Assembly (NCBI RefSeq): GCF_038725785.1
Contig: NZ_CP109796.1
Location: forward strand, 186,001 to 250,000
Direction of reading: 5' to 3'
Length of the DNA stretch: 64,000 nt
Source of the DNA: Termitidicoccus mucosus
GTDB lineage: Bacteria; Verrucomicrobiota; Verrucomicrobiia; Opitutales; Opitutaceae
The stretch's first letter is position 1. Each line of letters opens with the position of its first letter. Positions 11,401 through 30,357 of this stretch are shown piece after piece. The notes beneath the pieces are model-generated. The model did no database searches, had not been told where the DNA came from, and worked only from the letters and a program-made list of their open reading frames with translations. A program made the translations under genes and the position numbers.

Positions 11401-14400
11401 CGCTGTGGATGCGGGAGTTGTTGGTGAGCTCGAGCACGCCCGTGCCGGAATCGCCGATGATGAAGTCGCGCCCGTTGGTGTCCCAGGTGGCGGAGCCGCT
11501 GAGGACGGCGGTGCCGCGGCCGCCTCCGGTCCCGCCGAAGACAACGGTGCCGCTGCTGATGAGGGCGTTGCTGAAGAGTATCATGGAGCCGGTGCCGCTG
11601 TCGCCGACGGTGAACACGCCTGCGACATCGTTGTTCCACCGGGCGGAGCCGTTGACGATGAGTATGCCGGAGGCGCGGGAGTTGTGCCCCAGAATCGTGT
11701 TTGCGGCATGGACCTCGGCGGCGTTGTTGAGGGTGACGTTGCCGGAGCCGTTTTCGCCGAGGATGAAATCGCTGCCTGTCCACCGGCCGGAGCCGCTGAG
11801 GTTGGCAGCGCCCGTGGCGGTGCTGCCGCTGCCGATGACGGTCCTGACGGCGGTGCTGTCGATGCTGCCGCTGGCGGTGAGCTGGAGCGTGCTGTTGGTC
11901 GTGCCGCCGACGATGAACTGTCCGTCGCCGGAGGGGTTGCCCGTGGCAGTCCAGTAGCCGGTGCCGTTGACGATCGCCATGCCGCCGTTGATAAGGGCCG
12001 CGGCGCTGCCGGCGATTTGCCCGGTGCCGGTGAGGGTGAGCGTGCCGCCGTAAACGAAGGTCGTGCCGCTGTAACTGTGGCCGGCGCTGAGGATGAGATT
12101 GCCCCGGCCGCTCTTGGCGAGCGATTTGCCGTCCCACGATGTGGCGGGATTGGGGGCTTCGTCGCCGAGAGAGACGTTCACATCGAAACTCCGCCCTGCG
12201 TCGAGGGTGAAATTGCCGTGGGCGCGGGTGTCGCTGACGAGCCAGGCGAGGTTGAAGCCGATGTAGTAGTCGGTGCCGGAGTTGGAAGTGGTGTCGGCGA
12301 TGTTGTTGGCTTTGTAGCCGTCGAGAAGGATGAAGTCGAGGGGTGCGCTGGAGTCGGACGAGATGACGCTTATGGCATCGAAATCGCCTTGAATGTCGGT
12401 GTGGGTGCGGATGATGAGCTTGTTGCTGTTCGCGATGGCGCTGGCGGTGGTGCCGGTGGCGGCGCCGGTGAAGGCGAGGACATTGAGGGTGCCGGAAAGG
12501 CTGGCGTTCCCGGCATAGATGAAGGCGTCGCCCGGGCTGCGCAAGACGGAGTCGAAGATGATCCTGAGCAGGGAGGAACTGCTTTGCGCATACGTGCCGC
12601 CGACATCGAGCCGGCCGTCGTTGTCCACCCTGAGTATGCCGGAGCCGCCGACTCCGTTGATGAAGTCGCCGCCGACGTTCAGGCGGGAGTGGTCGTGTAT
12701 CCATGCCTGGCCGTTGGAGCCCGCCTGGTTGGCGAGGATGACATTATTGTCGACCTGCATGCTGCCGCTGGCCTTGAGCAGCAACTGGCCGAAGCCGGCG
12801 TCGCCGAGGACGAACTCGCCCGCATGATGCCAGAGCGTGGAGTCGGAACCGCTGATGACCGCCGTGCCCGTTGCGGCGGCGCCGACGGTGAGGGTGCCGC
12901 CGCTGAGGATGCTGCCGCTGCCCCTGAGTTCCACCGAGGCAAAGCCGGTGTTGCCGAGGACGATGTTGCCGGTGCCCGAATCCCAGAAGGCGGTGTCCTG
13001 GACGACCATGCCGACAAGGCTGTCGAGGGTGTTGCCGATGGAGACGCGGCTGTCGGTGAAAAGGCGTCCGGCCTCGGCGACGATGAGCGCGTCGGCGTTG
13101 TGGCTGTCGATGTCGAAGTCGCCGGTGGTGTGCCGCCAGACGCCGGTGACGGTGGCCTTGCTGTTGGCGGTGCCGGAGCCGCCGCCGATGGCGACGGGGC
13201 CGGCGGTGGCGAGGGAGCCGCCGGCCTGGACGGAGAGTTCGCCGGTCCCGGTGGCACCGATGGCGAGGCCGCCCGCGATTTGCCAGGACGCGCCGGAAGC
13301 GATCTCCACGAGGGCCCCGGTGCCGGACGCGCCGCCGATGACGCCGGCGGCGTTGCCGGCGGTGGTGCCGGTGATGCGGAGGACGCCGCCGTCAACGGTG
13401 GTGGTGCCGGTGTAGGTGTTGTTGGCGCTGAGGACAAGGGTGCCGCTGTTCGAAGAGGTGACGGTGAGCGATTTGCCGTCCCAGCCGGTGGTGAAGGCGC
13501 CTTTGTGGGTCTCATCGACAAGGGCGACATTGACATCGAAGGCGGCGGGGCCGGGGAGCGTGAAGTATCCATGCCCGCGGGAGGTGTCGGCAAACCAGGC
13601 GAGGTCGAAACCGAGGACGTAGTCCCTGTTGTCGGCGGACTTGTGCGCGCCGGCGATGACGAAGTCAGGGGCGTTGGCGGCGAGGCCGGCATTGACGTTT
13701 ACGTAGGTGAAGTCGTCCGTGATGCCGTTGGCGGTGTGGATGAGGACGTAGCTGGCGAGGTTTTGGACATCGGTGGCGGAGGCGCCGGAAAAAACGCCGC
13801 CGAAGCCGATGATATTGAGGGTGCCGGAGAGGCTGGCGGTCATGGCGTCGATGTAGGGGCCGCGCGGCTGGCCGCCGAGATCGAGGGAGAGGGTGGAGTC
13901 CTGGTTTTGGGCGTAGTTGCCCGTCAGGCGCAGGCTGCCGCTGTCGCGCATGGCGAGCGCGCCGATGCCGGAGCCGCCGAGTCTGAAATCGCCGAGGACG
14001 TTCCAGAGGGCCGCGCCGGCGATGGCGCCGGTGCCGGAGCCGCCGGTCTGCGCGCCAAAGGTGACACCGGCGCTGCTGATGCTGCCGCTGCCGGCGAGCG
14101 TGAGCGCGCCGGTGCCGGAGTTGCCGACGGTGAAGACGATGTTGTGGGTATCCCAGAAGCCCGAGCCGGCGATGGTGCCGGTGCCGAGCGCGCCGGCCTG
14201 GTCGCCAAAGATGACCGGGCCGCCGGTGATGTGGGCGGAGCCGGCGAGCGTGAGCGCGCCCGTGCCGGCGCCGCCGACGGTGAAGGCATTGTTGCCGCTG
14301 TCCCAGTAGGCGGAGCCGGCGAGCGTGCCGGTGCCGACGCCGGTGGCGAGGGCGCCGAAGGTAACACCGTTGTTGGTGGTGATGCTGCCGCTGTCGGCGA

Positions 14401-17008
14401 GAACGACCGCACCGGCGCCGGCGTTGCCGATGGTCAGGGCGTGGCCTTCGGTGAACCAGTAGGCCGAGCCGCCGACGGTGAGGACGCCGGCGGCGCCGGC
14501 CTGGTCGCCGATGAGACTTGCACCGTTGCTCGACCAGCGCGAGAGACCGGAGAGGGCCACGGTGCCGGTGGCGCCGGACTGGCCGCCGATGGTGACGGCG
14601 TTGCTGTTGACGCTGCCGCTGCCGGCGAGGGTGACCGAGGCCGCGGAGGAACGCCCGACGGTGAAGTCGCCGTATTGGGTGTTCCAGTAGCCGGAGGCGT
14701 CCACCACGCCCGCGGCGCCGTCAATGACAGCCCCGATGCTCGTGATACTGCCCGGAAGGTGGAGCGTGCCGCCGGTGACGATGGTCGTGCCGCCGGTGAT
14801 GGTGTTGTCGCCCCAAAGCTCGAGCAGGCCGCCGCCGGTTTTGTGGAGGTTCACGCCATAGCCGGTGGCGATGGAGTCGGCCTGGGCGGCGATGGAGGAA
14901 GCGTCGCCGATTCGCGCGGCCGCGTCGGCGCCGATGTTGAAGAGGATGCTGCCGGTGGTCATCATCGGCTGGACATAGAGGAAGCCGCCGTCGCCGGAGA
15001 GGGCGCGGTTGCCGGTGGCGAGGAAAGTGCCGGAGGCGAGATTGAGGTTAAAACTGTTGGCGACAAAAAACGCACCGCCGTTTTGCGCGGCGGTGTTGTT
15101 GGCAACGATGTAACTGCCGCCGGAACGGGCGTCCAAGGTGATGCTGCCGTAGCCGCCGGCGGCGAGCGCGCCGCCGTAACTGCCGGCGGTGTTGTTCGAG
15201 ATGGCGATGCTGCCATAGCTGCCGCTGATGATGATGTCGGTGCCGCTGGAAACGAGCGCGCCGCCGGCGCCGCCGGCGTAGTTGCCGGCAAGGACGAGCG
15301 AGCCGGCGGTGGCGCTGAGGACGATGCGGCCGTTCTGCGAGATCATGGCGCCGCCGTTTTGCGCGGCGGTGTTGGAGTCGAGGACGAGGCTGGCGTAGGC
15401 GCCGCGGAGGGTGAGCGCGCCGTCCGCGTAAATGGCCGCGCCGGAGGCGGCGCTGTTGCGCTGGAAGAGGACGCTGCCGGTGGTGCCGCCGAGGGTGAGG
15501 CTGCCGGATGAGTAGAGCGCGCCGCCGCCGGCGCCGCTGGCGGTGTTGCCGAGGAAAACGATGTTGGGGGAGGCGTTGGTGAAGGTGAGGGTGCCTCCGG
15601 CCCCGAGGCCGATCGCGCCGCCCGCGCCGGCGGTGTTGCCCGTGAAGGCGAGCGTGCCCCCCGCGCCAGTGGTGGCGGAGAGACGGACGGCGTTGCCGGC
15701 GTAGAGCGCGCCGCCCCTGCCGGCGGCGGTGTTGCTGGCAAAGAGGAGGGTGCCGGTGGCGGCGTAGGCGCCGCCGAGAGTGAGGCTGCCGGCGGCATTG
15801 AGCGCGCCTCCGTTGGCGGAGGCGGTGTTGCTCCGGAAGAGGGCGCTGCCGTAGGAGCCGGAGATGAACAGGTCGCCGCCGCTGTGGATGGCGCCGCCGG
15901 TGGCGGCGGTGTTGCCGCGGATGTCGAGGAGTCCGGCGATGGTGGCGGTTAGGAAGATGCTGCCTTGGTCGGTGGCGAGGGCGCCGCCGTTGCCCGTGGC
16001 GCGGTTGCCGGCGATGGTGGCGGCGGCGTAGCGCCCGCCGAAGACGAGGCTGCCGCTCACGCCAAGGCCGCGCCCGACGTAGAGCACGCCGCCGGAGGCG
16101 CCCGCGCTGTTGTTGGTGGCGGTGAAGGTGGCGGCGGTGGCGCCGACGATGAGGACGTTGTTGGCGTTGAGGCCGCCGCCCTCGGCACCGGCGCGGTTGG
16201 AGTCGATGAGGATGGCCGCGTGCGTGCCGCCGAGGGTGAGGGTCTGGTTGGAGTAGATGCCGCCGCCCGGGCCGCCCGCGGCGGTGTTGCTTTGGAAGAT
16301 GAGCGCGCCGCCGGTGTTGCCGGCGAGGGAGACGTTGCCCCAGGTGAGGATGCCGCCGCCGGCGTTGCTCGTGTAGTTGTTGGTGAAGGCGAGGTTGTTG
16401 GCGACGTTGGCGGCGAAGGAAACGCCGTTGGAGGCGAAAATGGCGCCGGCGTTGTCCCCGTTGGCGCGGTTGCCGGAGAAGAGGATGCCGCCGTAGCTGC
16501 CGCCGATGGCGACGGCGCCGCTGGTGGCGTGGAACGCGCCGCCGGCGCGGGCGATGTTGTTGGTGACGGCGAGGGTGCCGGTGACGGTGGAGCTGAAAGT
16601 GATGCTGGCGGCGGTGCGAAGCGCGCCGCCGGTGCCGGTGGTGTTGGTGTTGGCGGAGATGAGGATGTCGCCGTAGCTGCCGTTGATGAAGAGCGAGCCG
16701 GTGTTGGTGGCGCTGACGTTGATGGCGCCGCCCAAGCCGCCGGCGGCGGTGTTGATGTTGTTGGTGATCTTGAGCAGGGCGGCGGCGCCGCTGGTGTTGA
16801 AGGTAAGGCTGCCGTTGTTGACGGTAATGAGGGCGACATTATGGGATACGGCAGACGAGCCGGTGAAAGTGCCATCGGGCCCGAGCGTGTAGGCTTGGTT
16901 GCCGCCGAACGTGAGGGGGCTGCTGACTGTCTGCGCCCGCAGGCAGTCGGGGTCCACGAGACCGAACAGCATGATCGACCAATGCAGGGCGGAGGTATGA
17001 ATTTTCAT
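4973..17008 (-). CDS. Giant Pmp/autotransporter-type beta-strand repeat surface protein, N-terminal and largest fragment
   Basis: This is the 5' part of one enormous gene. I start at the ATG at 17008 because it opens a signal peptide (basic MKIH, a hydrophobic stretch, then LRA|QT as a likely cleavage site); an upstream ATG at 17086 in the same frame adds a non-signal-like leader. After the signal come chlamydial-Pmp-like repeats with GGAI/GGAL and FxxN-type motifs. Autotransporter-associated beta-strand repeats follow (the form LILSASNNYSGTTTVNGG) with T5SS/PEP-CTERM-type repeats (VGGSGSGAL, DSGSV). A second Pmp block lies near the middle. From about 5440 the frame becomes an Arg/His-rich nonsense tail, so the true sequence continues in other frames down to base 1. 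Such proteins are normally secreted and surface exposed. The C-terminal barrel or anchor is outside the window. The gene is either a real pseudogene or hit by assembly errors. Confidence 0.85.
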   Translation of the reverse strand: MKIHTSALHWSIMLFGLVDPDCLRAQTVSSPLTFGGNQAYTLGPDGTFTGSSAVSHNVALITVNNGSLTFNTSGAAALLKITNNINTAAGGLGGAINVSATNTGSLFINGSYGDILISANTNTTGTGGALRTAASITFSSTVTGTLAVTNNIARAGGAFHATSGAVAIGGSYGGILFSGNRANGDNAGAIFASNGVSFAANVANNLAFTNNYTSNAGGGILTWGNVSLAGNTGGALIFQSNTAAGGPGGGIYSNQTLTLGGTHAAILIDSNRAGAEGGGLNANNVLIVGATAATFTATNNSAGASGGVLYVGRGLGVSGSLVFGGRYAAATIAGNRATGNGGALATDQGSIFLTATIAGLLDIRGNTAATGGAIHSGGDLFISGSYGSALFRSNTASANGGALNAAGSLTLGGAYAATGTLLFASNTAAGRGGALYAGNAVRLSATTGAGGTLAFTGNTAGAGGAIGLGAGGTLTFTNASPNIVFLGNTASGAGGGALYSSGSLTLGGTTGSVLFQRNSAASGAAIYADGALTLRGAYASLVLDSNTAAQNGGAMISQNGRIVLSATAGSLVLAGNYAGGAGGALVSSGTDIIISGSYGSIAISNNTAGSYGGALAAGGYGSITLDARSGGSYIVANNTAAQNGGAFFVANSFNLNLASGTFLATGNRALSGDGGFLYVQPMMTTGSILFNIGADAAARIGDASSIAAQADSIATGYGVNLHKTGGGLLELWGDNTITGGTTIVTGGTLHLPGSITSIGAVIDGAAGVVDASGYWNTQYGDFTVGRSSAASVTLAGSGSVNSNAVTIGGQSGATGTVALSGLSRWSSNGASLIGDQAGAAGVLTVGGSAYWFTEGHALTIGNAGAGAVVLADSGSITTNNGVTFGALATGVGTGTLAGSAYWDSGNNAFTVGGAGTGALTLAGSAHITGGPVIFGDQAGALGTGTIAGSGFWDTHNIVFTVGNSGTGALTLAGSGSISSAGVTFGAQTGGSGTGAIAGAALWNVLGDFRLGGSGIGALAMRDSGSLRLTGNYAQNQDSTLSLDLGGQPRGPYIDAMTASLSGTLNIIGFGGVFSGASATDVQNLASYVLIHTANGITDDFTYVNVNAGLAANAPDFVIAGAHKSADNRDYVLGFDLAWFADTSRGHGYFTLPGPAAFDVNVALVDETHKGAFTTGWDGKSLTVTSSNSGTLVLSANNTYTGTTTVDGGVLRITGTTAGNAAGVIGGASGTGALVEIASGASWQIAGGLAIGATGTGELSVQAGGSLATAGPVAIGGGSGTANSKATVTGVWRHTTGDFDIDSHNADALIVAEAGRLFTDSRVSIGNTLDSLVGMVVQDTAFWDSGTGNIVLGNTGFASVELRGSGSILSGGTLTVGAAATGTAVISGSDSTLWHHAGEFVLGDAGFGQLLLKASGSMQVDNNVILANQAGSNGQAWIHDHSRLNVGGDFINGVGGSGILRVDNDGRLDVGGTYAQSSSSLLRIIFDSVLRSPGDAFIYAGNASLSGTLNVLAFTGAATGTTASAIANSNKLIIRTHTDIQGDFDAISVISSDSSAPLDFILLDGYKANNIADTTSNSGTDYYIGFNLAWLVSDTRAHGNFTLDAGRSFDVNVSLGDEAPNPATSWDGKSLAKSGRGNLILSAGHSYSGTTFVYGGTLTLTGTGQIAGSAAALINGGMAIVNGTGYWTATGNPSGDGQFIVGGTTNSTLQLTASGSIDSTAVRTVIGSGSTATGAANLSGSGRWTGSDFILGENGSGNVTLNNAAEVHAANTILGHNSRASGILIVNGSARWNNDVAGVFTVGDSGTGSMILFSNALISSGTVVFGGTGGGRGTAVLSGSATWDTNGRDFIIGDSGTGVLELTNNSRIHSGTVVIGAKTGSSNQVTITNSAFWDTNGAAFVIGDAGDGVLSLQGSGSVSSGALILGRGNDPGFGGALQVAGSGYWTTNGNDVTVGGETTGAVVMQGSGSIRAGSITLGLNAGATGTGLISNSALMRADGDFLNGGAGVGELQIRDSGSLSVGGLYEQSSDSLLQIVLTGTRGAFITAGSAALSGTLTVSGFSGTVTGTKASDVGGNSILLIRTGNVIAGDFGARLVITPTSGLPDFIIADAYRASNGVRDEVTGTDYVVGFGLAWFSDTTKGHGSFTLDAGHAFNVDVSLVDEDSKGTFATGAWDGKSLTKLGAGTLVLSSVNTYSGATIIREGGLLVSATGANAAAALGTGTLVLFDSTTTSGTLLFDTTATMTQRQVVDVDSAAALANTNPAALLTVTAPAHAGDGGAVHVNAGGTYNLLGDIAFAGNNASSASGGAIYLDTGATLGLGVGGIAFTGNTAGAGGAVSGRDALVINGGGGALVATDNRAGSTGGAFDALGDIRLSDSYGAIVIAGNTAGTFGGALYSHGGGISITATAGVFTATGNTAAAGGFAYAGAGGITLAGLYDAIRVAGNSATAGSGGAIYGARGVSINVSDSLVIQSNTAAIHGGAVYSGSDFALTGSFEGILIEGNISGTHGGAVYAEGDAAIGGTVGGDILITGNSAITGYGGAIYSGGALALNATAGGGIHIDGNTSGTSGGALFGNGAITINSAAAGTLSVTNNASNGGGALTSGASITIGGSYGDILIASNTARVAGGGAFAASLGSIAVDTLTSGSLVIRDNYTALTGGAFTAGGAASAITIGGTYGAIAISSNTASGAGAFRAANGASLVIDAVADSFEIVQNTASGGVGGVAVADGAITIGGHYGSLLVSSNTASLSSGAFYSGGDTTLTGSHGVITIAGNTALTGGGGAFWAGGDLAFTATAASLVATDNAARNGAGGFAGAAGAVIIDGDYGTVTITNNISGTGGAIYSGGNFTLRLASGDTLVATGNLAADEASGGFLYVNSGSILFDIAAGADAQIGFQFSRAMQADSIATGADVNLVKAGAGLLMLWANNTVSGTSLLLDGTLAMAAEGSLATGVYEQEAGATLSLDLSGAPRPSFITATAAQLSGTLDLLNASALIAGGTKASELAQNNQVLIHTTDTITGGFTGTIGVNGAGAADYLVSGAFIVGGTDYVLGSQLAWFSDTTASHGNFTLGADETFEVDVPLGDTTPHAAGANVPAWDGASLTLTASNSGTLILSASNNYSGTTTVNGGVLEVTGWTGSTAQVNIASAANSSGTVSVSGYWNTAGNLIVGGSGSGALLMSGGTVRANSIIIGGNSTGVGTGSVGAGALLIGSGGINVGGNGSGTLIIAAGGTARGNYDRIGDQDGDATLLVEGVWTNTTFRVGIYGDAALTISGTGMVLTAANGSINDDASNGHVSTALLTGSGWWDVGTTFTMGGYEGTGSLAITQSGSLTVGTDATIGSYEDTSFVNVSGSGLFRTGSNFTLGNASGPATLFMSESGSVRAGGTYAQGANGTLSITHTGTLGSRGAFVTAASGTLSGTLTVNAGGTAAFVNGGSASALANNSQVLIRTGTISGGFDTVTVTGGTSTHDFLTLGAFIVGGTDYVLGSQLTWYSGTATAHGNFTLGAGETFTVDVPLNNTATPNTSGWDGASLTVTASNSGTLILSASNNYSGTTTVNGGVLEVTGWTGSTAQVNIASAANSSGTVSVSGYLGTANSGINVGGWQASDTNAHGILNLTGTAAGSLNVGRGTASTGEVNVSGNGALFGNSDWIGNNGALGTVNVTDSGSWSNGWLYVGYWGGTGVVNVSGTGVVTATTAYIGYYSYEEVARGELNVSGSGWFQAGELSIGHQGFGTGATLEGAVTLTDSGSVTAGNIVIANSAGGGAVTTGSASVGGNALLASATNIILGNGTNSAALAVSGSGLVTAGGAYAQNAQSTLTLDAAGDGVTARGAGDAFIYASSATVGGTISVSGFARQRVRGRAKRRQQRPSSPHQRDQRHHQRRVRQRHAGRRQRAARLPLRRHLQDHQRQQLRRRCEPRMVRRCRQRPRQLHRRRRHELRRQHHPQRHHGPRRFPRLRLRLGRSFADRHRQQLRHAHPQRLEHPHRHDHGQRRRARHHRLDGQQRGGLD
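8340..10200 (-). repeat. Pmp-like repeat block 2 (protein level)
   Basis: This is a second run of the GGA(I/L/V) and (I/F/V)xxN repeats inside the same protein, beginning near GGAVHVNAGGTYNLLGDIAF. It ends with GGFLYVNSGSILFDIAAGADA, nearly the same cap as block 1. Its recurrence between two stretches of autotransporter-type modules suggests that the gene grew by duplicating a large composite unit. Confidence 0.65.
14960..16850 (-). repeat. Pmp-like repeat block 1 (protein level)
   Basis: About 630 residues of short repeats alternate GG-A-[ILF] turns with [FIV]xxN strands (for example SGNRANGD..GAIFASNG and FTGNTAGAGGA). This is the GGAI/FxxN pattern of chlamydial polymorphic membrane proteins, a beta-helix passenger repeat. 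The block ends in a GGFLYVQP and GSILFNIGADA capping segment that is paralogous to the end of block 2. The assignment rests on motif appearance only. Confidence 0.65.
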
Positions 17009-17861
17009 GGTGAGAGCCGGCTTAAATAAGATGTTAAATTGGCCGACGCTGCCGCCCGATATGCGACATCCCGTGCGCGTCTCCAAAGGGACACAGCAGC
17101 AAGTTAAAAAACATCACGGAGTGTTTGGTATTCGCGAAATGAAGTTCGGATTTATTTGTATAAGACCTTATATAAACGGAAGTCTTTTTGCCTATATGTC
17201 AACATTCTATTACAATTCCAAAATTCCGGTTCGGAAATCAGAATAGTCTGTAATATCCAGTGATGGGACATCGGAAAGCGATGGATATATAAAATTTGGC
17301 GCCAATGCACTTGTTTCGTTGGCAATATTGGCGCATTGATATTAATATAAAGTTTTTCGCGGTCCTGAATGATGAAAATATAACGGTATCTATTCACCGG
17401 TAGTCTAATAAAACACACCATGATTCGCCAATTAAGTTATTGTATATGTGTTGATTATTATTGGTAGGCCGCGATTGGTTGCCACCGTGCCTTTTCACGG
17501 CAGGGGTGCAAGAGCCCCCGGGAAATGAAGGCAGGGCAATGGCTTGGGCGGATTAGGAAAAACCCGGCCGTGGATTTTCCCGCGCTTCGCGGTTTTGCGT
17601 CTCGGTGCCTTCGCTGTTCAACCCGCCGCCGTTTCGGGGATCAACCTTCCCTCGCGATCATCAAAAACAGCGGCGAACATTGGGCTTTATAAGGGGAGGA
17701 GGGAGATCCCTCCGAGTCGTCCGCTTCCAAACAGATGGGCGGCACGGAGGCCGTCCCTCCTGCAAAAGTGCCATTTTGCCATTGTGAAGGGTGCCTTTGC
17801 AAAAATTCCTCAAACGGGCCTCACGCCCTTGCCCCATGGCCGGCTCCCGTCATCCTGCCCC
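17009..17861. other. AT-rich intergenic region upstream of the giant gene
   Basis: There is no convincing gene here. Bases about 17105-17460 are much richer in A/T than the flanks. On the minus strand they contain TTGACA-like and TATATA-like words, but with non-ideal spacing (about 22 bp), so I do not assign a promoter. A short inverted repeat (gcgccaat and attggcgc) lies near 17300-17335. Small hairpins occur near 17490-17520. The region probably holds the promoter of the giant surface-protein gene and the left boundary of the accessory region. Confidence 0.4.
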
Positions 17862-20582
17862 ATGCTTGAGGGAAAAACAGAGGGGGATGCAGCCCAACGC
17901 GTTGGGCCGGGGACGAAGATAACGGCCGATTTGTTCGCCGCTTTTCTGAAGTGCCCGGTCAAGTGCTGGCTGCGATTTCAGGCCATGGCGGTCGAGGACA
18001 ACCCTTACGCCCGGTGGTTTCAGGAAAGGGCGGCGGCTTACCGGGCCGGGGGAGCGGGCCGGCTGGCATCCGGGGCGGAGACGGAAGTGGTGGCGCAGGC
18101 CGTGGATGACCGCACTGGACTCATGCTCGCATCGCATCCCGACGCCGTGGAGCCCATTCCCTCCGCAGGCCGGGGCAGTCCGGCGCAGGCTGTGCCCGTC
18201 CGGTTTCATTTCCTCAACAAGCCGGGCAGGGACGAAAGCCTGCTGTTGGGATTCGATGCCCTGACCCTGGCCGGAAAGGGCAGGCGCGCGTCCGCGCATG
18301 GCAAACTGGTGTATGGTGACGATTACGCGGTGAAAAAGGTCAGGATCGCCGAACTGGCCGACGAAGTGCGCAGGCGCATCGGACAAATGGCGGTTTTGCT
18401 GTCCGGCACCGCTTCGCCCGAGTTGGTCCTGAATCGGCACTGCGCCGAGTGCGGATTCCAAAGGCATTGCCGGCAAAAGGCGGTGGAGCAGGACAGCCTC
18501 AGCTTGCTGGCCGGCATGGGCGAGCAGGAGCGCCAGCGACTGCGCGGCAAGGGCATTTTCACTGTCACCCAGCTTTCCCACACTTTTCAGCCCCGCCGCA
18601 AACCCCGGTGGTTGAAGGGCCGGGCGGAAAAATATCATCACGCGCTCAAGGCCCTGGCCATCCGGGAGCGGAAGATTCATCTGGTGGGCAGGCCGGAATT
18701 GAAGATCGAGGGCACGCCGGTCTATCTGGATGTCGAGGGTGTGCCGGACCGCGATTGTTACTATCTCATCGGTTTGCGCATCGGCAGCGGGGCGGCGGCG
18801 CGGCAGCACAGCCTGTGGGCGGACAGCGACCGGGACGAAGAAAAAATCTGGCGGGAATTTCTGGCCGTTTTGAATACCGTCGAGCGCCCGGTGCTGATCC
18901 ATTACGGGAGCTACGAAACCAGTTTTTTGAAACGGATGCGGGCGCGTCACGGAGAACCGGAGCCGGGCTCGCCGGCGGCCGGCGCCATGGAGTCGGCGCT
19001 GAACCTGGTCTCCGTGATCTTTGCCCGGATTTATTTCCCGACCTTTTCCAACGGCCTCAAGGAAATCGCCCAATACCTCGGTTTCAGTTGGTCGGTGCCG
19101 GCGGCTTCGGGCGTGCAGTCCGTGGTGTGGCGGGAAACGTGGTCCCGCGCCCCGGCTTCGTCCGAGCGCGAGCGGCGCAACCTGATCGCCTACAACGCGG
19201 ACGATTGCGCCGCGCTGGACGTAGTGACGCAGCGGATACTTGACCTGGCGGCGGCGCTGCCTCCCGACGTGGTCGATGCGGCGGGCCTGAAGCGGGAGAA
19301 TCCCTATGGGTTCAAGCGCAACCGATTTTTCTTCCCCGAACTGGCGACCATCAACCAGGCCGCCTACTGGGATTACCAGCGGGAAAAGGTTTATGTGAAA
19401 TCCGACCGCCGCCTGCGTCGCGCCCTAATAAAAGTCCCCGCCGGTTCCATAAGAGACGTGCCGGTGAACCGGCGTGTCCAATGCGCGGCGCCGACGCAGT
19501 GTCCGCATTGCGGGCTTTCCAGCCTGCGCAAATATGACCGGGCAAGCAGGACGGTTTACGATTTGAAATTCACCCGCGGCGGCTTGCGGCGCTGGGTGGT
19601 GCATTATCATTATCACCGCCATGAGTGCCGGCATTGCGGGCGGGTGTTTCGCCCGCCGGCGGCGGGCCTGCCGGACGGCAAGTTCGGCCCGGCGTTGATG
19701 GCCTATGCGGTTTACCAGAACATCGAGCTGCGCCTGTCGCAGGAAATGATCGACCGCAGCCTCGACGAACTGTTCGGCCTGCCGCTGGCGCAGGGGAGCG
19801 CGAGCCGTTTCAAGATCAAGGCCGCGCAGGTTTACGCCGCGACCTACGAATTGCTCCTGCGGCGCTTGCGGCACGGCGGCCTGTTGCACGTCGATGAAAC
19901 CAAGGTCAGCGTGGCGGGCTGCCAGGGCTGCGTCTGGGTTTTTGCCAGTCTCGACACGGTCGCCTATGTTTACACCCAAAACCGCGAAAGCGAATGGCTG
20001 CGGGATTTTCTTAAAAATTTTCAGGGCGTGCTGGTGACGGACTTTTATTCCGGCTACGACGCGCTTGAGTGTCCCAAGCAACGCTGCCTCATCCATTTTT
20101 TGCGCGACCTGAATGACGATTTATACAAGCACCCCTACGATGAGGAACTGAAGCGCGTGGGCCGGGATTTTGCGGACTTGGTCAGACCGATGATCGCGAC
20201 GGTCGAGCGCCGCGGGCTGAAGGTGCGTTTTCTTAAAAAACACCGGCGGGCGGTTGACCGCTTTTACCGGCGGCTGGACCTCGCGCCGCCGGGCTCCGCA
20301 GTTCTAAAAAAATACCGGGAACGCTTCGCGCGGGAGCGGGGGGAGTTGTTCACGTTTCTGCACCATGACGGCGTGCCTTGGAACAACAACAACGCGGAAC
20401 ACGCGATCAAAGCCTTTGCCCTGCTGCGGCAGGTCATCAACGGCGTGACCTCGGAAAAGGGCCTGCGGGAATACCTGATTTTGCTGAGCGTGTGCGAGAC
20501 CTGCAAATATCAGGGCGTAAAGTTTCTGGATTTCCTGCGTTCCGGCGATCAGGACATCCATCGCTTCGCCGCGCCACGCTAA
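17862..20582 (+). CDS. RecB-like (TM0106-type) nuclease fused to IS66-type transposase
   Basis: A predicted 906-residue protein. The N-terminal half resembles TM0106-family RecB-like nucleases: CPVKCWLRFQ near residue 28, a CAECGFQRHC cysteine cluster near 192, then a YprB-like RNase H fold segment with DVEGVPDRD near 290 and NADDCAALD near 445. The C-terminal half is an IS66-type DDE transposase: a zinc-finger-like CPHCG...CRHCG near 547-595, HVDETKVSV near 676, VTDFYSGYDA near 725 and NNNNAEHAIKAFA near 841. The ATG at 17862 is chosen because the open frame upstream (to 17544) has no family-like residues; no strong ribosome site is seen. The gene is uninterrupted and lies 57 bp from the convergent intI. 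A 3' remnant of a second copy lies at 30242. I saw no terminal inverted repeats. The fusion is read directly; its activity is inference. Confidence 0.75.
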   Translation: MLEGKTEGDAAQRVGPGTKITADLFAAFLKCPVKCWLRFQAMAVEDNPYARWFQERAAAYRAGGAGRLASGAETEVVAQAVDDRTGLMLASHPDAVEPIPSAGRGSPAQAVPVRFHFLNKPGRDESLLLGFDALTLAGKGRRASAHGKLVYGDDYAVKKVRIAELADEVRRRIGQMAVLLSGTASPELVLNRHCAECGFQRHCRQKAVEQDSLSLLAGMGEQERQRLRGKGIFTVTQLSHTFQPRRKPRWLKGRAEKYHHALKALAIRERKIHLVGRPELKIEGTPVYLDVEGVPDRDCYYLIGLRIGSGAAARQHSLWADSDRDEEKIWREFLAVLNTVERPVLIHYGSYETSFLKRMRARHGEPEPGSPAAGAMESALNLVSVIFARIYFPTFSNGLKEIAQYLGFSWSVPAASGVQSVVWRETWSRAPASSERERRNLIAYNADDCAALDVVTQRILDLAAALPPDVVDAAGLKRENPYGFKRNRFFFPELATINQAAYWDYQREKVYVKSDRRLRRALIKVPAGSIRDVPVNRRVQCAAPTQCPHCGLSSLRKYDRASRTVYDLKFTRGGLRRWVVHYHYHRHECRHCGRVFRPPAAGLPDGKFGPALMAYAVYQNIELRLSQEMIDRSLDELFGLPLAQGSASRFKIKAAQVYAATYELLLRRLRHGGLLHVDETKVSVAGCQGCVWVFASLDTVAYVYTQNRESEWLRDFLKNFQGVLVTDFYSGYDALECPKQRCLIHFLRDLNDDLYKHPYDEELKRVGRDFADLVRPMIATVERRGLKVRFLKKHRRAVDRFYRRLDLAPPGSAVLKKYRERFARERGELFTFLHHDGVPWNNNNAEHAIKAFALLRQVINGVTSEKGLREYLILLSVCETCKYQGVKFLDFLRSGDQDIHRFAAPR

Positions 20583-20639
20583 GTTGCTTCAGGGCAAATT
20601 ATATTATACGGCAGTCACGAAAAACCTGTCTTCACTGCA

Positions 20640-21935
20640 TCAACTCGTGTCCAACGGTGAGCGCACCCCAAGGCCCGGCCTGCGCATCACGTGCGTATAA
20701 ATCTGCGTCGTTTCCACCTTCGCGTGGCCCAGCAACTCCTGCACCGTCCGGATATCCGCGCCGCCCTCCAGCAAATGCGTCGCAAACGAGTGCCGCAGCA
20801 CATGCGGCGATACCCGTTTGTTCAAATCCGCCGCGTCCGCCGCCTTCTTCAACGCCAGTTGGAACGCGCTGTCCGTCACATGATGCCGCCGCCTCACACC
20901 GCTCACCGGGTCGCGGCTCAACCCGCGCGACGGAAACAGCCACTGCCACTCCCAGCGCTCGCCCGCCCCCGCATACTTGCGCCCCAGCCCCTCCGGCAGC
21001 CATACCCCCGGCGCCCCGTCGGCCCGATCCTCCCGCCACAGCCGCTTCAGCCTCTTCAAATGCTCCTCCAGCCGTTCCCTCAACACCGCCGGCAGCACCG
21101 TCACCCGGTCCTTGTCGCCCTTGCCCCCGTTCACGATCAACGCCCCGCGCTCCAAATCCACATGCTGCACCCGCAGGCGCAACAGCTCCATCAACCGCAC
21201 TCCCGTCCCATACATCAATTCCGCCATTAACGACCACGTCCCCTCCAACTGCCCGAACAGACGCCCGCACTCCTCCCTCGACAGCACCACCGGCGCCCGC
21301 CTTTTCGCCGCCGCCCGCTGAAAGCCTATCTTTCCCAGCACCCGCCCCAGTCCCTTTTCCAGAAAGAACACCAGCGCATTCAACGCCTGCTTCTGCGAAG
21401 CCGGACTCAGCCGCGACTCCACCGCCAGCCTCGATAAAAATTCCGCCACATCCTCCCCGCGCGCCTCCCGCGGCGGCCTCCCCTTCAAAAACGCTACGAA
21501 CCGCGCCGCCCACTCCCGGTAAGTCGTCTCTGTGCGCCACGCCAGATGCGCCCCCCTTGCGGCCACGATCAGATCCCTCTCCCAGTCCGCGCGCCCCAGG
21601 TCCGCCGCGCCCGGCGGAGGCTCCATCTGGGCGGCCGGAACCTCCCGCCGGTGAAAAGCGGGGACGAGAGTTCCCGTCTCACGACTGGGCCGATTGCGCG
21701 GCCTGTCCGCGTCGCCCAAGTCATTGCCGCCAGTCCGGGGTGCCACCCCGGCCGCCCTCCTGAAAAACCACCGCAACGCCTCCCTCTCAGTCTCCGCAAT
21801 GCGCGTCTCCGCCAAATATGCCCGCACCACGCGAACCGACGCCCCGCAACGCCGAGCCTTGCAAAAATGTAAAAACGACAGCACTGCCCGCTCGTAAAAA
21901 ACCATCATTTCGGGTGGCAATGCCTCTTCCCGCAA
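20640..21935 (-). CDS. intI: Integron integrase IntI (tyrosine recombinase) with N-terminal extension
   Basis: A site-specific recombinase that inserts and excises gene cassettes at attI and attC sites. Catalytic motifs are visible: Arg in MYGTGVRLMELLRLRV, H-x-x-R in SPHVLRHSFATHLL, and LLGHAKVETTQIYTHV with the nucleophilic Tyr. The integron-specific insert between the second and third motifs is present (RKYAGAGERWEWQWLFPSRG, then SRDPVSGVRRRHH), and the C-terminus GLGVRSPLD matches IntI proteins. At about 431 residues it is roughly 90 longer than typical IntI; the extra N-terminal part looks like another helical core-binding segment. The start at 21935 is TTG with GGAAGG a few bases upstream; ATG at 21908 is an alternative. 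It points away from the cassette array, as in a canonical integron. Confidence 0.9.
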   Translation of the reverse strand: MREEALPPEMMVFYERAVLSFLHFCKARRCGASVRVVRAYLAETRIAETEREALRWFFRRAAGVAPRTGGNDLGDADRPRNRPSRETGTLVPAFHRREVPAAQMEPPPGAADLGRADWERDLIVAARGAHLAWRTETTYREWAARFVAFLKGRPPREARGEDVAEFLSRLAVESRLSPASQKQALNALVFFLEKGLGRVLGKIGFQRAAAKRRAPVVLSREECGRLFGQLEGTWSLMAELMYGTGVRLMELLRLRVQHVDLERGALIVNGGKGDKDRVTVLPAVLRERLEEHLKRLKRLWREDRADGAPGVWLPEGLGRKYAGAGERWEWQWLFPSRGLSRDPVSGVRRRHHVTDSAFQLALKKAADAADLNKRVSPHVLRHSFATHLLEGGADIRTVQELLGHAKVETTQIYTHVMRRPGLGVRSPLDTS

Positions 21936-22099
21936 AACAGCCTTCCAATGTGGAAACGAAACCGCGCGCGACTCATCGCGGAAGAAACCGCCCGTTGCCG
22001 GATTGGATGGGATTGTTCATGAAAAAGCTTCCGGAAAAATGATTTTGACGAGATTGATCGCCGCATCCCAAAAAGCCAAATTCAAAAACCAAATTTCAA

Positions 22100-22203
22100 A
22101 GGCCCCGGTATTGACAATCAAAATGATAAGGCAAGCATCCCTGCCATGTTTTCCCTTCTACAACCCAAGGCCAGTTTGGCCTAATAACACTGATCGGCGA
22201 AGA
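22100..22203 (+). promoter_or_regulatory. Probable attI / cassette-promoter region
   Basis: Divergent spacer between intI and the first cassette gene. A perfect TTGACA sits at 22111-22116, pointing into the array, but no good -10 box follows at 16-18 bp, so the Pc-like promoter is only suggestive. The palindromic aggccagtttggcct at about 22164-22178 contains a GTTTGGCC word resembling the GTTGGCC core at the third cassette junction. This makes it a candidate attI crossover. Position and function are inferred. Confidence 0.35.
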
Positions 22204-22632
22204 ATGACAGAATTGACCCCAGTTTCTGAGTGGCAGGTGTGGCTGATGGATACAGCGCCAAAGTTCAGCCAGCTCTATTCATGGCTGCTGATGGCTTTCG
22301 GGTTCTCGGTCTCTATCTTGCTCGCTCGTTCGCTGAAGAATTCTGGATTCTATGCTGTTGCGGTGTTCTTCCTCTCCCCCGTGTTCTTCTGGGGCATGCG
22401 TGAAGTGAGGTATCAGATGCACCGGGAAGCTATCGAGGCCTACGCCGCCGAGCAGAATCGAAAGATCCAATCCGGTGAGATCATACCGCATATCGAGTCT
22501 TCAGTGAATTTCCCACTCTTCGAAACGTTTCTCGTGCTTGGCTTGGCCGTGGTGTATCGAAACTCAAAAAGAAGGCCGATCCAGTTGCCCGAGCCAACGT
22601 CCGGGCTGGCGCCCGGCCGTGGCTCATCGTAA
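22204..22632 (+). CDS. Cassette 1: small membrane protein, unknown function
   Basis: A 142-residue protein with two or three hydrophobic segments (LYSWLLMAFGFSVSILLA near residues 20-40, FYAVAVFFLSPVFFWGM near 48-65, and FETFLVLGLAVVY near 105-120) separated by a charged stretch (MHREAIEAYAAEQNRK). ATG 22204 is preferred over the far upstream 22003 start, which would cover the attI region. The last ~20 codons run into the attC site and the stop codon lies inside it. It is the first gene of the cassette array, next to the presumed promoter. I do not recognise the family. Confidence 0.6.
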   Translation: MTELTPVSEWQVWLMDTAPKFSQLYSWLLMAFGFSVSILLARSLKNSGFYAVAVFFLSPVFFWGMREVRYQMHREAIEAYAAEQNRKIQSGEIIPHIESSVNFPLFETFLVLGLAVVYRNSKRRPIQLPEPTSGLAPGRGSS

Positions 22633-22640
22633 ACGATGGG
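22574..22640 (+). other. attC site 1
   Basis: Imperfect palindrome with inner arms gagccaacgtccgggc and gcccggccgtggctc. The left arm has one extra A after gagcca, the extrahelical base expected of attC. The outer triplets are degenerate: AAC and GTT are replaced by ATC-like and GAT-like words. Confidence 0.65.
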
Positions 22641-22649
22641 CAAACACTG

Positions 22650-23123
22650 ATGGACCTGCCGCCGCCAATCGAAAGCCAGCCATTCAAGGCGTATGATGAG
22701 TTCTTCGCACCACTCAGAGCGGATATTCTGCGGCTGGTGGCCGAGCGCGGATTGCACCTTGAGAAATATTACCACGAAGCCCCTTGCTGGAGTCTGCTGT
22801 TTCGCCATCCCAAGGGCGGGGTCGCGAAAGTGGAGGTCACGAAGAAAGAAGATGGCCGGGTTGGAGTCAGCGGTGTCTGGTGGAAGGACGATTTTGATGA
22901 CGGCACCCGGTCATTGATGTGGTTCGAGGAAGAGGCTATCGGACATGATGGTCCCACCGTTTCACGTAGCGCGAAGATCATGCTTGAGCGCATCCTTGCT
23001 CATCCGCTTGGTGCGTGGTCGAAGGTTGCAGACGGCTACAAATCTCTATGGCACCCCTATGGCCGCAGCTTTATCGAGGACGACGAAAAGCGTTACCCAC
23101 TTCCGAAAGAAGAGAAGAAATGA
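22650..23123 (+). CDS. Cassette 2: unknown 157-residue protein
   Basis: A soluble, charged protein beginning MDLPPPIESQPFKAYDEFF. A central segment (LLFRHPKGGVAKVEVTK, then VSGVWWKDDFDDGTRSLMWF) looks like alternating beta strands, followed by a helical part (SAKIMLERILAHPL) and a polar tail. No signal peptide, membrane segment or recognised catalytic motif. ATG 22650 lies 10 bases after the first attC core, so the gene fills its cassette closely, as usual. Family not recognised. Confidence 0.7.
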   Translation: MDLPPPIESQPFKAYDEFFAPLRADILRLVAERGLHLEKYYHEAPCWSLLFRHPKGGVAKVEVTKKEDGRVGVSGVWWKDDFDDGTRSLMWFEEEAIGHDGPTVSRSAKIMLERILAHPLGAWSKVADGYKSLWHPYGRSFIEDDEKRYPLPKEEKK

Positions 23124-23124
23124 A

Positions 23125-23193
23125 GAGCCCATCCAGAGCATCACAAACAACGACGGGGCTGCGCCCCGTCGTGTCTGACTGCTGACGTTCGTC
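23125..23193 (+). other. attC site 2
   Basis: Inner stem acgacggggc / gccccgtcgt around a tgc loop, lying 3' of cassette 2. The right outer box is GACGTTCGTC; the left outer box is degenerate (catccagag). Spacing resembles the other sites, and the left arm carries extra bases near caaacaacg. Confidence 0.6.
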
Positions 23194-23199
23194 AAAAGC

Positions 23200-23523
23200 A
23201 TGCCTCTCGAAGCTCAAGTCTATCCGACAATGCCCTCCAGGCCCTGCCGTTTTTGTCTTAGCCTGCGAGAAGGCAGCGTATTCGCAGATTTCGATGTAGA
23301 TGAAGAGGGCCGGGTCTTCCTCTGCCGCATCTCGTTCGACGGTCACGGCTGCTGCGATGGCGAGTTTAAGAAGATGTCCTTCGAAGATTCGCAGCTTCTG
23401 CTTGAGGCGGTGGATCGAGAGGCCGTCGATAGTGCCGAAGTGGAAGCAACCCTGCGGACTTACTTCGGTCAAAATTCAGATGTGATTTGGAGCGATGCGC
23501 TCGCCGACCATGAACTCGTCTAA
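23200..23523 (+). CDS. Cassette 3: unknown 107-residue protein
   Basis: A small acidic protein with two cysteine pairs (PCRFCLS near residues 15-21 and HGCCDGEF near 49-56) that could bind metal, followed by an acidic helical C-terminus (LLLEAVDREAVDSAEVEATLRTYFG). There is no signal peptide. It occupies a cassette alone, between attC sites 2 and 3. Family not recognised. Confidence 0.65.
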   Translation: MPLEAQVYPTMPSRPCRFCLSLREGSVFADFDVDEEGRVFLCRISFDGHGCCDGEFKKMSFEDSQLLLEAVDREAVDSAEVEATLRTYFGQNSDVIWSDALADHELV

Positions 23524-23532
23524 AGAGAAGAC

Positions 23533-23598
23533 GCCGAACCAGCTTCCAGTGCCAATGTCTGGCCTGCGGCCAGCCATGGCACATCGTTAACGTTGGCC
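23533..23598 (+). other. attC site 3
   Basis: A clear attC. The outer left is gccgaac and the outer right gttggcc. AAC plus 12 bases then gtgcca on the left is mirrored by tggcac plus 12 bases ending in GTT on the right. The inner stem gtgccaatgtctggcc / ggccagccatggcac has one extra A on the left (extrahelical base) and a tgc loop. Confidence 0.8.
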
Positions 23599-23615
23599 GA
23601 AAAAGAATCTTCCCG

Positions 23616-24557
23616 ATGGCAACACCCAAGAAAAAAGCAACTCCTTCGCGAGCAGCAAAGTGTTCCTTCATGTTCCAAGCGGCGAATATTGAGGCGCTCT
23701 TCCCGGTGCTCGACGCTTTGGCATGGCTCGACTTCCCCGATACATCACAGGTAGCCCAGTTTGCAGGTATTGATCCAAGAACTGCCGGAAAACTCCTCAA
23801 GAATTGTCTGAGCATCGGCATAGCTCAGACGGCGGCTAAAGAAGGATTCGCGTTAACAACGCCATATCCCTACAAGGGTGATATCGAACAGAAGAAGACA
23901 GTAATCAGAGAAGCTCTGGTCAGGATGCCTCTACTCCAACACGTTCGGCAATTCCTGAACCTTGGAGATTCTCTAGATGATGCAGTCCGTAAGGCTGCGA
24001 CACTGGATGGGATTACGGATTATGACGCAAGCGCATTTGGCCCGCTATTGAAATGGTCCAAGCAAATGAATGTTCTCCAGCCCGATCTGTTAATCGAAGA
24101 TATTATTGAAGATGCGATCGAATCCAAAGAGGAACGGCACCGATCGACCGACAAGAAGATCGTCGCCTTCCTTTCACACAGCTCGCGAGATAAACCCTTT
24201 ATTCGACAACTTGCTTCAGACCTGACAAAAAATGGCATTTCTGTGTGGTTGGATGAGCGAGAGATTAGGGTTGGTGACTCAATACCTGATAAAGTCGGCC
24301 AGGGTCTCGCAGAGTCCGATTTTTTCTTGATCGCACTGAGTGAGAACTCTGTTGATTCAGCTTGGGTTAAGAAGGAGCTGAACCAAGCCTTGGTTGCCGA
24401 GATTGAGAAGCGGAAGACCCATATACTGCCGTTGAAACTATCAGAATGCCAGATTCCGCAGCTAATACGGGACAAGAAGTATGCAGATTTTTCCGCCAAT
24501 TATAAGGAAGGCCTCAAAGACCTTCTATCAACCATGCAACAGCAAACCACATTATGA
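23616..24557 (+). CDS. Cassette 4a: TIR-domain protein with N-terminal winged-helix-like domain
   Basis: 313 residues. The N-terminal ~150 residues look like a winged-helix or HTH domain (LDFPDTSQVAQFAGIDPRT then TAGKLLKNCLSIGIAQ). A TIR domain follows from about residue 178: VAFLSHSSRDKPFIRQLA (first strand and BB-loop region), ISVWLDEREIRVGDSI, SDFFLIALSENSVDSAWV and KKELNQAL. Glu254 in WVKKEL is placed like the catalytic glutamate of TIR NADases. Bacterial TIR proteins of this type often act in anti-phage defence by degrading NAD. The stop overlaps the start of the next gene (ATGA at 24554-24557), so the two are probably translationally coupled. The cassette is visibly less GC-rich than the host genes, fitting horizontal acquisition. 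Defence role is inferred. Confidence 0.8.
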   Translation: MATPKKKATPSRAAKCSFMFQAANIEALFPVLDALAWLDFPDTSQVAQFAGIDPRTAGKLLKNCLSIGIAQTAAKEGFALTTPYPYKGDIEQKKTVIREALVRMPLLQHVRQFLNLGDSLDDAVRKAATLDGITDYDASAFGPLLKWSKQMNVLQPDLLIEDIIEDAIESKEERHRSTDKKIVAFLSHSSRDKPFIRQLASDLTKNGISVWLDEREIRVGDSIPDKVGQGLAESDFFLIALSENSVDSAWVKKELNQALVAEIEKRKTHILPLKLSECQIPQLIRDKKYADFSANYKEGLKDLLSTMQQQTTL

Positions 24558-25315
24558 CAGAACCTAAAAAGATGCCCAAAGGAGGCAGAAAAGGCGGCAC
24601 CATGTTTCCTCGAGTCCGACTGAAGGACGCGGTTGTATTCGCTAGGAAGCTCGTCTCGAAAACTCACACCGGGCCTCAACCGGCAACAGTAATTTTATCC
24701 GGAGTGTTTGGTGCAGCCGGGCCGCAGGGTCAGGTTCGAGCGTCTGCATTGAAACAATACGATTTGCTTAGCGGAACGCCAAAAGCGTATACAGCAACTG
24801 ATCTCGCACGAAAAATCGTTGCTGCGCCGATCGAAGAACTAACACCCCACCTCGCTAAAGCTTTTTTCAAAGTAAAGCCGTTCAAGACACTCTTTGATAC
24901 GTTTTCTAATGATACGGTTTCGGTAGCTCGGGTCAGACAGCAGGCGTTAAACCTGAAAGTCCATCCGGAAGTTGTGGACGAATGTGTCGATCTTTTCCTT
25001 TTGTCAGCAGCTGATGCAGAATTGGCTAACCGGTCAGGGACCGATGTGACTTTTGGGACGGTTGCGTCTGGGATTGTTCGCGAGCCGATTGAATCTGAGG
25101 AAGAGCTTGATGAAACTAACCTGAATAACGTTGAGCAGGAGAATACTGAAGAGGCTGAGAACGAGACGGAATATAGGTTAGACGGGCGCAAAATGCGATC
25201 TCAACAACCTGCGCCGAAATCAAAAGCTAGTCTTGAGATCAAAATAGACCCATCTATGGATCCAGAGAAGCTTGATAAGCTGCTAGGAGTGTTAAAAAAA
25301 TACGGACAAATCTAA
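24554..25315 (+). CDS. Cassette 4b: unknown partner of the TIR protein
   Basis: 253 residues, starting inside the stop codon of the TIR gene. The N-terminal half looks like a compact helical or winged-helix domain (RLKDAVVFARKLVSKTHTGP, VRASALKQYDLL, AYTATDLARKIVAAP), followed by VRQQALNLKVHPEVVDEC. An acidic linker rich in E and N (residues ~180-212) leads to a C-terminal amphipathic segment (LEIKIDPSMDPEKLDKLLGV). There is no transmembrane segment or nuclease motif. Overlap and a shared attC put it in the same cassette as the TIR gene. It may sense a trigger or regulate the TIR effector; that is inference. Family not recognised. Confidence 0.7.
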   Translation: MTEPKKMPKGGRKGGTMFPRVRLKDAVVFARKLVSKTHTGPQPATVILSGVFGAAGPQGQVRASALKQYDLLSGTPKAYTATDLARKIVAAPIEELTPHLAKAFFKVKPFKTLFDTFSNDTVSVARVRQQALNLKVHPEVVDECVDLFLLSAADAELANRSGTDVTFGTVASGIVREPIESEEELDETNLNNVEQENTEEAENETEYRLDGRKMRSQQPAPKSKASLEIKIDPSMDPEKLDKLLGVLKKYGQI

Positions 25316-25317
25316 AA

Positions 25318-25381
25318 GGCCAACCAGTCGCCCGAGCCAACAGCGCCCTCCGGGCGCCGTGGCTCACCTTGAACGTTGATC
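25318..25381 (+). other. attC site 4
   Basis: The outer boxes are ggccaac and gttgatc. AAC plus 12 bases plus gagcca on the left mirrors tggctc plus 12 bases ending in GTT on the right. The inner stem gagccaacagcgccc / gggcgccgtggctc has one extra A on the left. It closes the TIR cassette three bases after its stop codon. Confidence 0.8.
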
Positions 25382-25571
25382 TAGCTGCGAATATACAAGC
25401 TCAAAAAAGCAAAGCCAGTCCCCGGTTTTCGCTTGGGATTTATGTTTATATAAACTGCCGTCGTTCGGAGGCACAGGACAGGGACCGGTCGATTATAGGA
25501 TAAACGCGTGCGTGGGTTGGGCGTGATCCCGGTTGAACCGTGATCGTGCTGATCTTCGCGGGTTGGTTACC
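25374..25571 (+). repeat. ORF-less repeated segment, copy 1
   Basis: It begins at the GTT core of attC site 4 and is nearly identical to 30066-30244, which begins at the core of the last attC. Shared words include gttgatctagctgcgaatat and cgattataggataaacgcgt. This copy has about 17 extra bases near 25520-25540. It contains an AT-rich gtttatataaac palindrome but no ORF. It could be a non-coding cassette or a copied array boundary. After it, about 30 bp lead to the IS110 element. Confidence 0.7.
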
Positions 25572-25602
25572 GACAGTGCATTGGTGCGTCTTGCCCGCAT
25601 GC

Positions 25603-30073: not shown

Positions 30074-30244
30074 TAGCTGCGAATATACAAGCTCAAAAAA
30101 GCAAAGCCAGTCCCAAATTTTCGCCTGGGATTTATGTTTATATAAACTGCCGCCGCCGGAGGCACAGGACAGAGACTGGTCGATTATAGGATAAACGCGT
30201 GCGTGGGTTGGATGTGATCGTGCTGATCTTCACGGGTTGTTTAC
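30066..30244 (+). repeat. ORF-less repeated segment, copy 2
   Basis: Near-identical to 25374-25571 and, like that copy, starting at the GTT core of an attC. It contains the same AT-rich gtttatataaac palindrome and no ORF. Its right end runs directly into the transposase remnant at 30242. Confidence 0.7.
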
Positions 30245-30357
30245 CTGATTTTGCTGAGCGTGGGCGAGACCTGCAAATACCAGGGGTGCAGTTTCTGGAT
30301 TTCCTGCGTTCCGGAGAATTGGACGTTCATCGCTTTGCCGCACGCTAAGTTGCTTCA
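30242..30357 (+). pseudogene. 3' remnant of the nuclease-IS66 transposase gene
   Basis: Bases 30242-30357 match 20474-20592, the last ~36 codons, stop and short 3' flank of the complete fusion gene. Examples are tacctgattttgctgagcgt, tttctggatttcctgcgttc and acgctaagttgcttca. It is in the same orientation as the full copy. The rest of the gene is absent. A few substitutions and small indels show it is an old fragment. Confidence 0.8.

Follow-up and report, generated by a model that had tools for sequence, protein, structure and literature searches.

The stretch of DNA analysed here, called the window below, comprises 64,000 nucleotides of the Termitidicoccus mucosus genome, and its features are collected in Table 1. 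The translation of its fusion gene scores above two NCBIfam cut-offs: TIGR03491 (TM0106 RecB-like nuclease) at aa 67-455 with 174.6 bits (cut-off 97.45), and NF033517 (IS66 transposase) at aa 534-893 with 213.8 bits (cut-off 180). The initial annotation had proposed one frame that unites a TM0106-type nuclease half with an IS66-type transposase half, and the two profiles bear this out. Pfam assigns aa 287-457 to RNase_H_2 and aa 607-868 to DDE_Tnp_IS66.

Table 1. Coordinates of the fusion gene, its domains and the neighbouring features in the window
Feature	Position	Strand	Remarks
Fusion gene	17862..20582	+	906 aa, single frame, final stop only
Cas4/RecB-like domain, aa 14-212	17901..18497	+	4 invariant Cys; catalytic acid absent
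3'-5' exonuclease-like domain, aa 283-466	18708..19259	+	D290, E292, Y444, D448 invariant; RNase_H_2 (Pfam)
Zinc-ribbon-like segment	19500..19637	+	C547, C550, C589, C592 invariant
IS66-type DDE domain	19680..20465	+	D678 (19893), D727 (20040), E846 (20397) invariant
Integron integrase	20640..21935	-	TIGR02249, 367 bits, cut-off 265
Stretch common to second copy	17794..22212		96.2% over 4420 columns
Cassette array	22574..25381	+	four attC-like sites, read by eye
attC-like sites	about 22574-22641, 23125-23193, 23533-23598, 25318-25381		read by eye
Solo 3' fragment of fusion gene	30242..30357	+	one of three found in genome

The genome holds a second copy of the fusion gene (G000:C1:4787145-4789862), in the same frame, 96% identical in amino acids and free of stops. 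Both copies stand tail-to-tail with an integron integrase gene, and these two integrases are the only ones found in this genome. The stretch common to the two copies consists of 68 bp upstream, the fusion gene and the integrase, and runs to the first cassette junction; the cassettes beyond differ. The window copy of the fusion gene lies behind the integrase and is not a cassette. Among the loci compared, a close relative of the window's integrase was found beside the fusion gene only in these two copies, with weak matches in L056 and L023. The nearness to an integron pointed out initially thus holds for both copies in this genome, but integrases are no commoner in fusion-bearing genomes: an integrase above the cut-off was present in 13/49 of them vs 64/240 sampled genomes of the window's phylum, two sets whose phyla differ. 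A general link between the fusion and integrons is therefore unsupported at the genome level.

Three further features of this region were noted. Directly past the last attC-like site, both integron copies have an IS110-family element (window 25318-26965; second copy in L012/L096; 93-97% identical), which suggests that it was inserted at attC. The cassette gene at 23616-24557 encodes a C-terminal TIR domain (NF042941, 90.5 bits, below the cut-off of 600) that resembles the TIR parts of anti-phage proteins. On the minus strand beside the fusion gene, one open frame of 4037 codons (4973-17086) perhaps encodes a giant repeat or surface protein.

Integrity and distribution of the fusion

A search for relatives in 57 genomes, the window's own included, revealed a one-frame copy (72-81%) in a genome of the same genus and weak partial matches only in two others. 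A scan of genome contigs gave 154 relatives, of which the best 80 were analysed. Both halves lie in one uninterrupted frame in 76 of these 80, and 59 span query residue ≤25 to ≥885 in such a frame. The exceptions are L026, L028 and L061, which are interrupted, and L081, which begins at query residue 305. Isolates among the best 80 include Polaromonas sp. P2-4, Pedobacter glucosidilyticus, Microvirga, Paraburkholderia and Cupriavidus. The second copy and the 76 one-frame relatives settle that there is no stop at the join (19300-19400), and they rule out a stop codon lost in this assembly. An assembly or sequencing error that united two separate genes is a negligible explanation in view of the intact second copy, the same-genus copy and the one-frame relatives, isolate genomes among them. 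The conserved nuclease-transposase fusion is genuine.

The fusion family is spread over about ten phyla. Ten phylum labels fall on 67 of 70 tree rows, and the labels change 31 times vs a minimum of 9, in a quickly built tree with many metagenome bins, where part of the mixing may be binning error. The tree suggests strong horizontal spread between phyla. Occurrence is patchy: in one genus 2/48 genomes carry the fusion gene, and in the window's phylum 2/240, the window's own included, the other being a 27% match. Within one Microvirga genome the fusion genes are unlike, being 36-67% identical to a Microvirga query. No relative of the fusion protein was found in viral contigs, and phage records gave a single partial match.

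Folds and conserved residues of the fusion protein

The structure was predicted from the 54-sequence alignment with a mean pLDDT of 85.9 and a pTM of 0.57; because of this pTM, the mutual placement of the parts of the fusion protein is not fixed by the model. ISCth4 and Cas4 chains took the top Foldseek ranks. VIA-align superposed residues 14-212 on Cas4 (7mi4_A, Z 17.1, rmsd 3.0, 183 aligned), residues 283-460 on the E. coli Pol II exonuclease region (3k5o_B, Z 14.7, rmsd 2.8, 153 aligned) and residues 537-885 on the ISCth4 transposase (6xg8_A, Z 14.3, rmsd 6.3, 308 aligned), and its best rows for the N-terminal part were Cas4-Cas1-Cas2 complexes. In the predicted model, the domain order is a Cas4 fold, a proofreading-type 3'-5' exonuclease and a DDE transposase. 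PADLOC returned weak Cas4 matches only, and a PDB sequence search with the fusion protein gave nothing meaningful.

In the alignment of 54 proteins, C31, C194, C197, C203, D290, E292, Y444 and D448 are invariant in 54/54, and so are C547, C550, C589, C592, D678, D727 and E846. The first four are predicted iron-sulphur cysteines and confirm the Cys cluster described for the nuclease half; the cysteines from C547 to C592 may bind zinc. With its D-D-E residues invariant, the transposase half is complete, as had been claimed.

Cas4/RecB-like nucleases have a PD-(D/E)xK motif with a catalytic acid. The position of this acid, 2 residues past the invariant P112 as set by one stand-alone nuclease homologue with D there (L123), is occupied by R in 36 fusions, L in 11, V in 3, I in 3 and S in 1, and is acidic in 0/54. 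The other Cas4-like acid (D94 in the window) is D in 18/54. The sequences suggest that the Cas4-like module has probably lost its catalytic activity and serves in DNA binding. Since its acid is missing in 54/54, the exonuclease domain is the more likely working nuclease, and it probably provides the nuclease activity of the fusion protein. The initial annotation, which called the nuclease half RecB-like, did not set this 3'-5' exonuclease domain apart.

Judged by their residues, both catalytic sites, that of the exonuclease and that of the DDE domain, appear functional. The dN/dS values, calculated by the Nei-Gojobori method on stop-to-stop frames, which also take in some codons ahead of the start, are 0.08-0.25 in 6/6 pairs and indicate purifying selection on the fusion gene. 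Given the invariant catalytic residues and the low dN/dS, the enzyme appears to be in use.

Element ends and traces of movement

IS66 elements have terminal inverted repeats with an 8-bp target duplication, and contain either tnpA/tnpB helper genes or a single gene (ISBst12 type). The fusion protein has an IS66 DDE transposase with an intact D-D-E. Its gene is single, with no helper genes among the 25 commonest neighbour families. A gapped inverted-repeat search near the gene gave p≤0.05 in 9/59 loci, where about 3 were expected; among these, L064 and L073 are repeat-type sequences, L070 contains runs of N, and the others have no common motif. Target duplications combined with terminal repeats were searched within 3.5 kb on each side in 69 loci and compared with the means of mononucleotide shuffles. 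The counts were 1 vs 0.3 for 9 bp, 2 (one a run of N) vs 1.7 for 8 bp, 3 vs 0.7 for 7 bp, 4 vs 0.7 for 5 bp and 4 vs 0.7 for 4 bp. Every size class includes one run of N, in L070, and the remaining loci do not resemble one another. The one 8-bp candidate, in L055, has a 13/20 repeat and would enclose the toxin-antitoxin (TA) pair of that locus.

As a control, we used 20 stretches with other matches from the same host genomes, two of which (L117, L122) gave no usable test, while L123 is the stand-alone nuclease. Among the 17 IS66-type genes, 8 scored p≤0.05, including each of the four single-gene copies (432 aa) in one Microvirga genome, which represent one element type, and two of these copies have exact 8-bp duplications (L107, L109). 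The control genes that did not score are mostly longer frames, and helper genes may separate these from the left end of their element. Although the control worked, the 59 and 69 fusion loci searched thus yielded no consistent IS66-type terminal repeats and no consistent target duplications. An ordinary IS66 element is unsupported, because such ends were not found while the single-gene IS66 control scored, and the unusual transposition mechanism proposed in the initial annotation is unproven.

Contig ends and related genomes were compared as well. Among 14 small contigs and 27 whole contigs, a terminal direct repeat was found in L027 only. This metagenome contig of 3549 bp contains little beyond the fusion gene and has an identical 44 bp at 1-44 and 3506-3549, a repeat that coincides in part with the 3' end of a tRNA-Glu gene; it could point to a circle, to integration or to an artefact of a tRNA array. 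Inverted matches between contig ends with p≤0.05 occurred in L087 (A+T-rich) and L071 and have no common motif. Two Microvirga contigs end in one common sequence, and another ends in an IS66-like end. The small contigs L065 and L079 of Microvirga tunisiensis contain unlike fusion genes and nearly the same 260-bp end sequence. No clean empty site was found in Paraburkholderia and Polaromonas. In Pedobacter, some 7 kb with the gene of L093 are missing from a close relative, a difference too large to define ends.

The window's genome contains three solo 3' fragments of the fusion gene, of 116-129 bp, at window 30242-30357, L014 4199-4327 and L015 3995-4112. They start at the window equivalent of 20465-20472 and end at that of 20587-20603, and pieces of IS110 or ISL3 adjoin them. 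In several contexts, identity ends about 11 nt past the stop codon of the fusion gene. In addition, 9/60 loci (L021, L023, L024, L027, L030, L033, L046, L062, L080) have tRNA genes no more than 1.5 kb from the fusion gene, and tRNA gene density is 9 per 146 kb near the gene vs 3 per 170 kb further out.

Carriage, neighbours and possible function

The start of an integron cassette is complementary to R'' of its own attC, and hairpins lie on both sides. In L092 and L087, the edges of the fusion gene unit are cassette edges: the cassette start, GTTACCT or GTTATGC, is complementary 7/7 to R'' of the downstream attC-like site, with hairpins on both sides. We scanned 70 loci for cassette boundaries against 12 mononucleotide shuffles each (840 in all; shuffle maximum 23.2). 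Three loci exceeded all 840 shuffles: L082 (28.2), L092 (27.9) and L087 (27.1), of which only L082 is independent because the scan was set up on the other two. L094 reached 22.7 with a left attC only and L093 reached 13.7; no other of the 70 loci passed. The fusion gene together with an AbiEi/AbiEii pair is common to L092 and L093 (95%) and to L087 and L094 (85.7%), and the flanks differ. A transposase-type gene is unusual cargo for an integron cassette.

In L093, the right attC of the fusion cassette is truncated and followed by a repeat of ~277 bp (8524-8800), which has many similar copies in Pedobacter relatives and matches no Rfam family; in L094 a similar sequence begins at the corresponding position. 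The sequence that interrupts the right attC of L093 and L094 resembles the end of a group II intron, an identity not claimed here because no such family reached the Rfam gathering threshold in 12 loci.

In at least 14 of the 60 scanned loci (62 loci with ≥1 kb downstream, L028 and L049 left out), TA or Abi genes occur within the first two frames downstream of the fusion gene. This count has no matched background; some of the loci were assigned through the relatedness of their proteins to scanned ones, and several are closely related to one another. The genes are of the AbiE type in L087, L092, L093 and L094, the Gp49 type in L055, L080, L066, L068 and L085, DUF433/DUF5615 in L050 and L052, MqsRA in L091, UPF0175 in L076 and Abi_2, barely over the cut-off, in L058. 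In L047 and L053, TA genes lie upstream of the fusion gene.

We tentatively read the fusion protein, at close to an even chance, as a horizontally mobile, IS66-derived, single-gene enzyme of DNA-end processing that is carried as cargo rather than as a self-moving standard IS. Its settings, as part of the same tentative reading, would be integron gene cassettes, integron neighbourhoods and TA-rich variable regions. The main competitor, a possibility that we weigh seriously, is an IS66-related element that moves by itself, with ends that are cryptic or unusual, or else as an integrating circle; in it, the exonuclease would process ends for a working transposase. The invariant DDE triad, the strong horizontal spread and the two near-identical copies in the window's genome fit such an element, but the stretch duplicated in that genome also holds the integron integrase, and fusion genes within one Microvirga genome are unlike. 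Its ends remain the weak point: the small excess of inverted repeats and the L055 candidate speak for it, but the matches share no motif, 8-bp duplications do not exceed the shuffle level, IS66 controls do score, and the clear boundaries in Bacteroidota are cassette boundaries. The 44-bp repeat is what a circular or integrated element would have, but it comes from one metagenome contig. The self-moving reading nevertheless keeps much weight, because the solo 3' fragments with their nearly constant starts and ends, the L027 repeat and the tRNA proximity are otherwise unexplained; the three disrupted copies also favour it.

Carriage as cargo fits somewhat better than self-movement because copies per genome are few and unlike in the one genus surveyed, occurrence is patchy, cassette carriage is found and TA genes keep company with the fusion gene. 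Against it, cassette carriage is clear in only 3/70 loci, two of which had served to develop it; the TA counts are subject to the limits given above, the upstream positions included; the integrase is not enriched; the paired copies and solo fragments look like past self-movement; and identical copies may be collapsed in draft genomes. For an enzyme carried as cargo, the domain order suggests a scheme in which the Cas4-fold module would hold a DNA end or flap, the exonuclease would then trim the 3' strand, and the DDE site would nick or join the trimmed DNA. As TA and Abi genes lie on the 3' side, the benefit to the carrier would probably be defence or element maintenance.

A more far-reaching version is improbable in our estimate. 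It sees a one-protein enzyme that captures DNA fragments as in CRISPR adaptation and inserts the trimmed DNA into the host genome, in line with three folds that match Cas4, a proofreading exonuclease and a DDE enzyme and with the Abi/TA neighbours; however, the Cas4-like acid is lost and the resemblance is one of parts only. A related and likewise improbable idea is a DDE-based counterpart of Cas4/exonuclease/Cas1 spacer acquisition, which would capture, trim and integrate ends and spread across phyla as cassette or island cargo with TA genes.

Compared with known systems, the fusion protein resembles IS66 TnpC in its DDE domain above the NF033517 cut-off, its invariant D-D-E and its cysteine pairs, but carries two nuclease-type folds in some 530 additional residues at its N-terminus and lacks consistent IS ends. 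It shares the Cas4-like domain, the RNase_H_2 exonuclease and the four cysteines with TM0106/COG2251 proteins (TIGR03491). According to passages in PMC3985635, COG2251 proteins contain PF13482 and DUF83 and frequently tandem AAA domains; the fusion has a transposase where these proteins often have AAA, and lacks the Cas4-like acid. Those passages on COG2251 do not mention an IS66 fusion. The likeness to Cas4 and Cas4-Cas1 of CRISPR adaptation lies in the N-terminal fold and the weak PADLOC matches, whereas the partners of this fold in the fusion protein are an exonuclease and a DDE enzyme instead of Cas1, with no Cas genes within the 25 commonest families of nearest neighbours. The main text of PMC5704561, which surveys Cas4 families and helicase fusions, does not mention IS66, TM0106, toxins or integrons. 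Tn3-family transposons with TA pairs, described in PMC7157771, whose section list names Gp49, likewise place a transposase gene beside TA genes; the fusion differs in having another transposase family, TA genes on either side and strand, and no defined element ends.

Listings of open-licence literature contained nothing evidently on this nuclease-IS66 fusion. With its exonuclease and DDE residues kept across phyla, the fusion makes the coupling of DNA-end trimming to strand transfer open to test outside CRISPR. Existing annotation is divided, one plasmid copy being named a nuclease and another plasmid copy a transposase, and this split makes the family easy to overlook.
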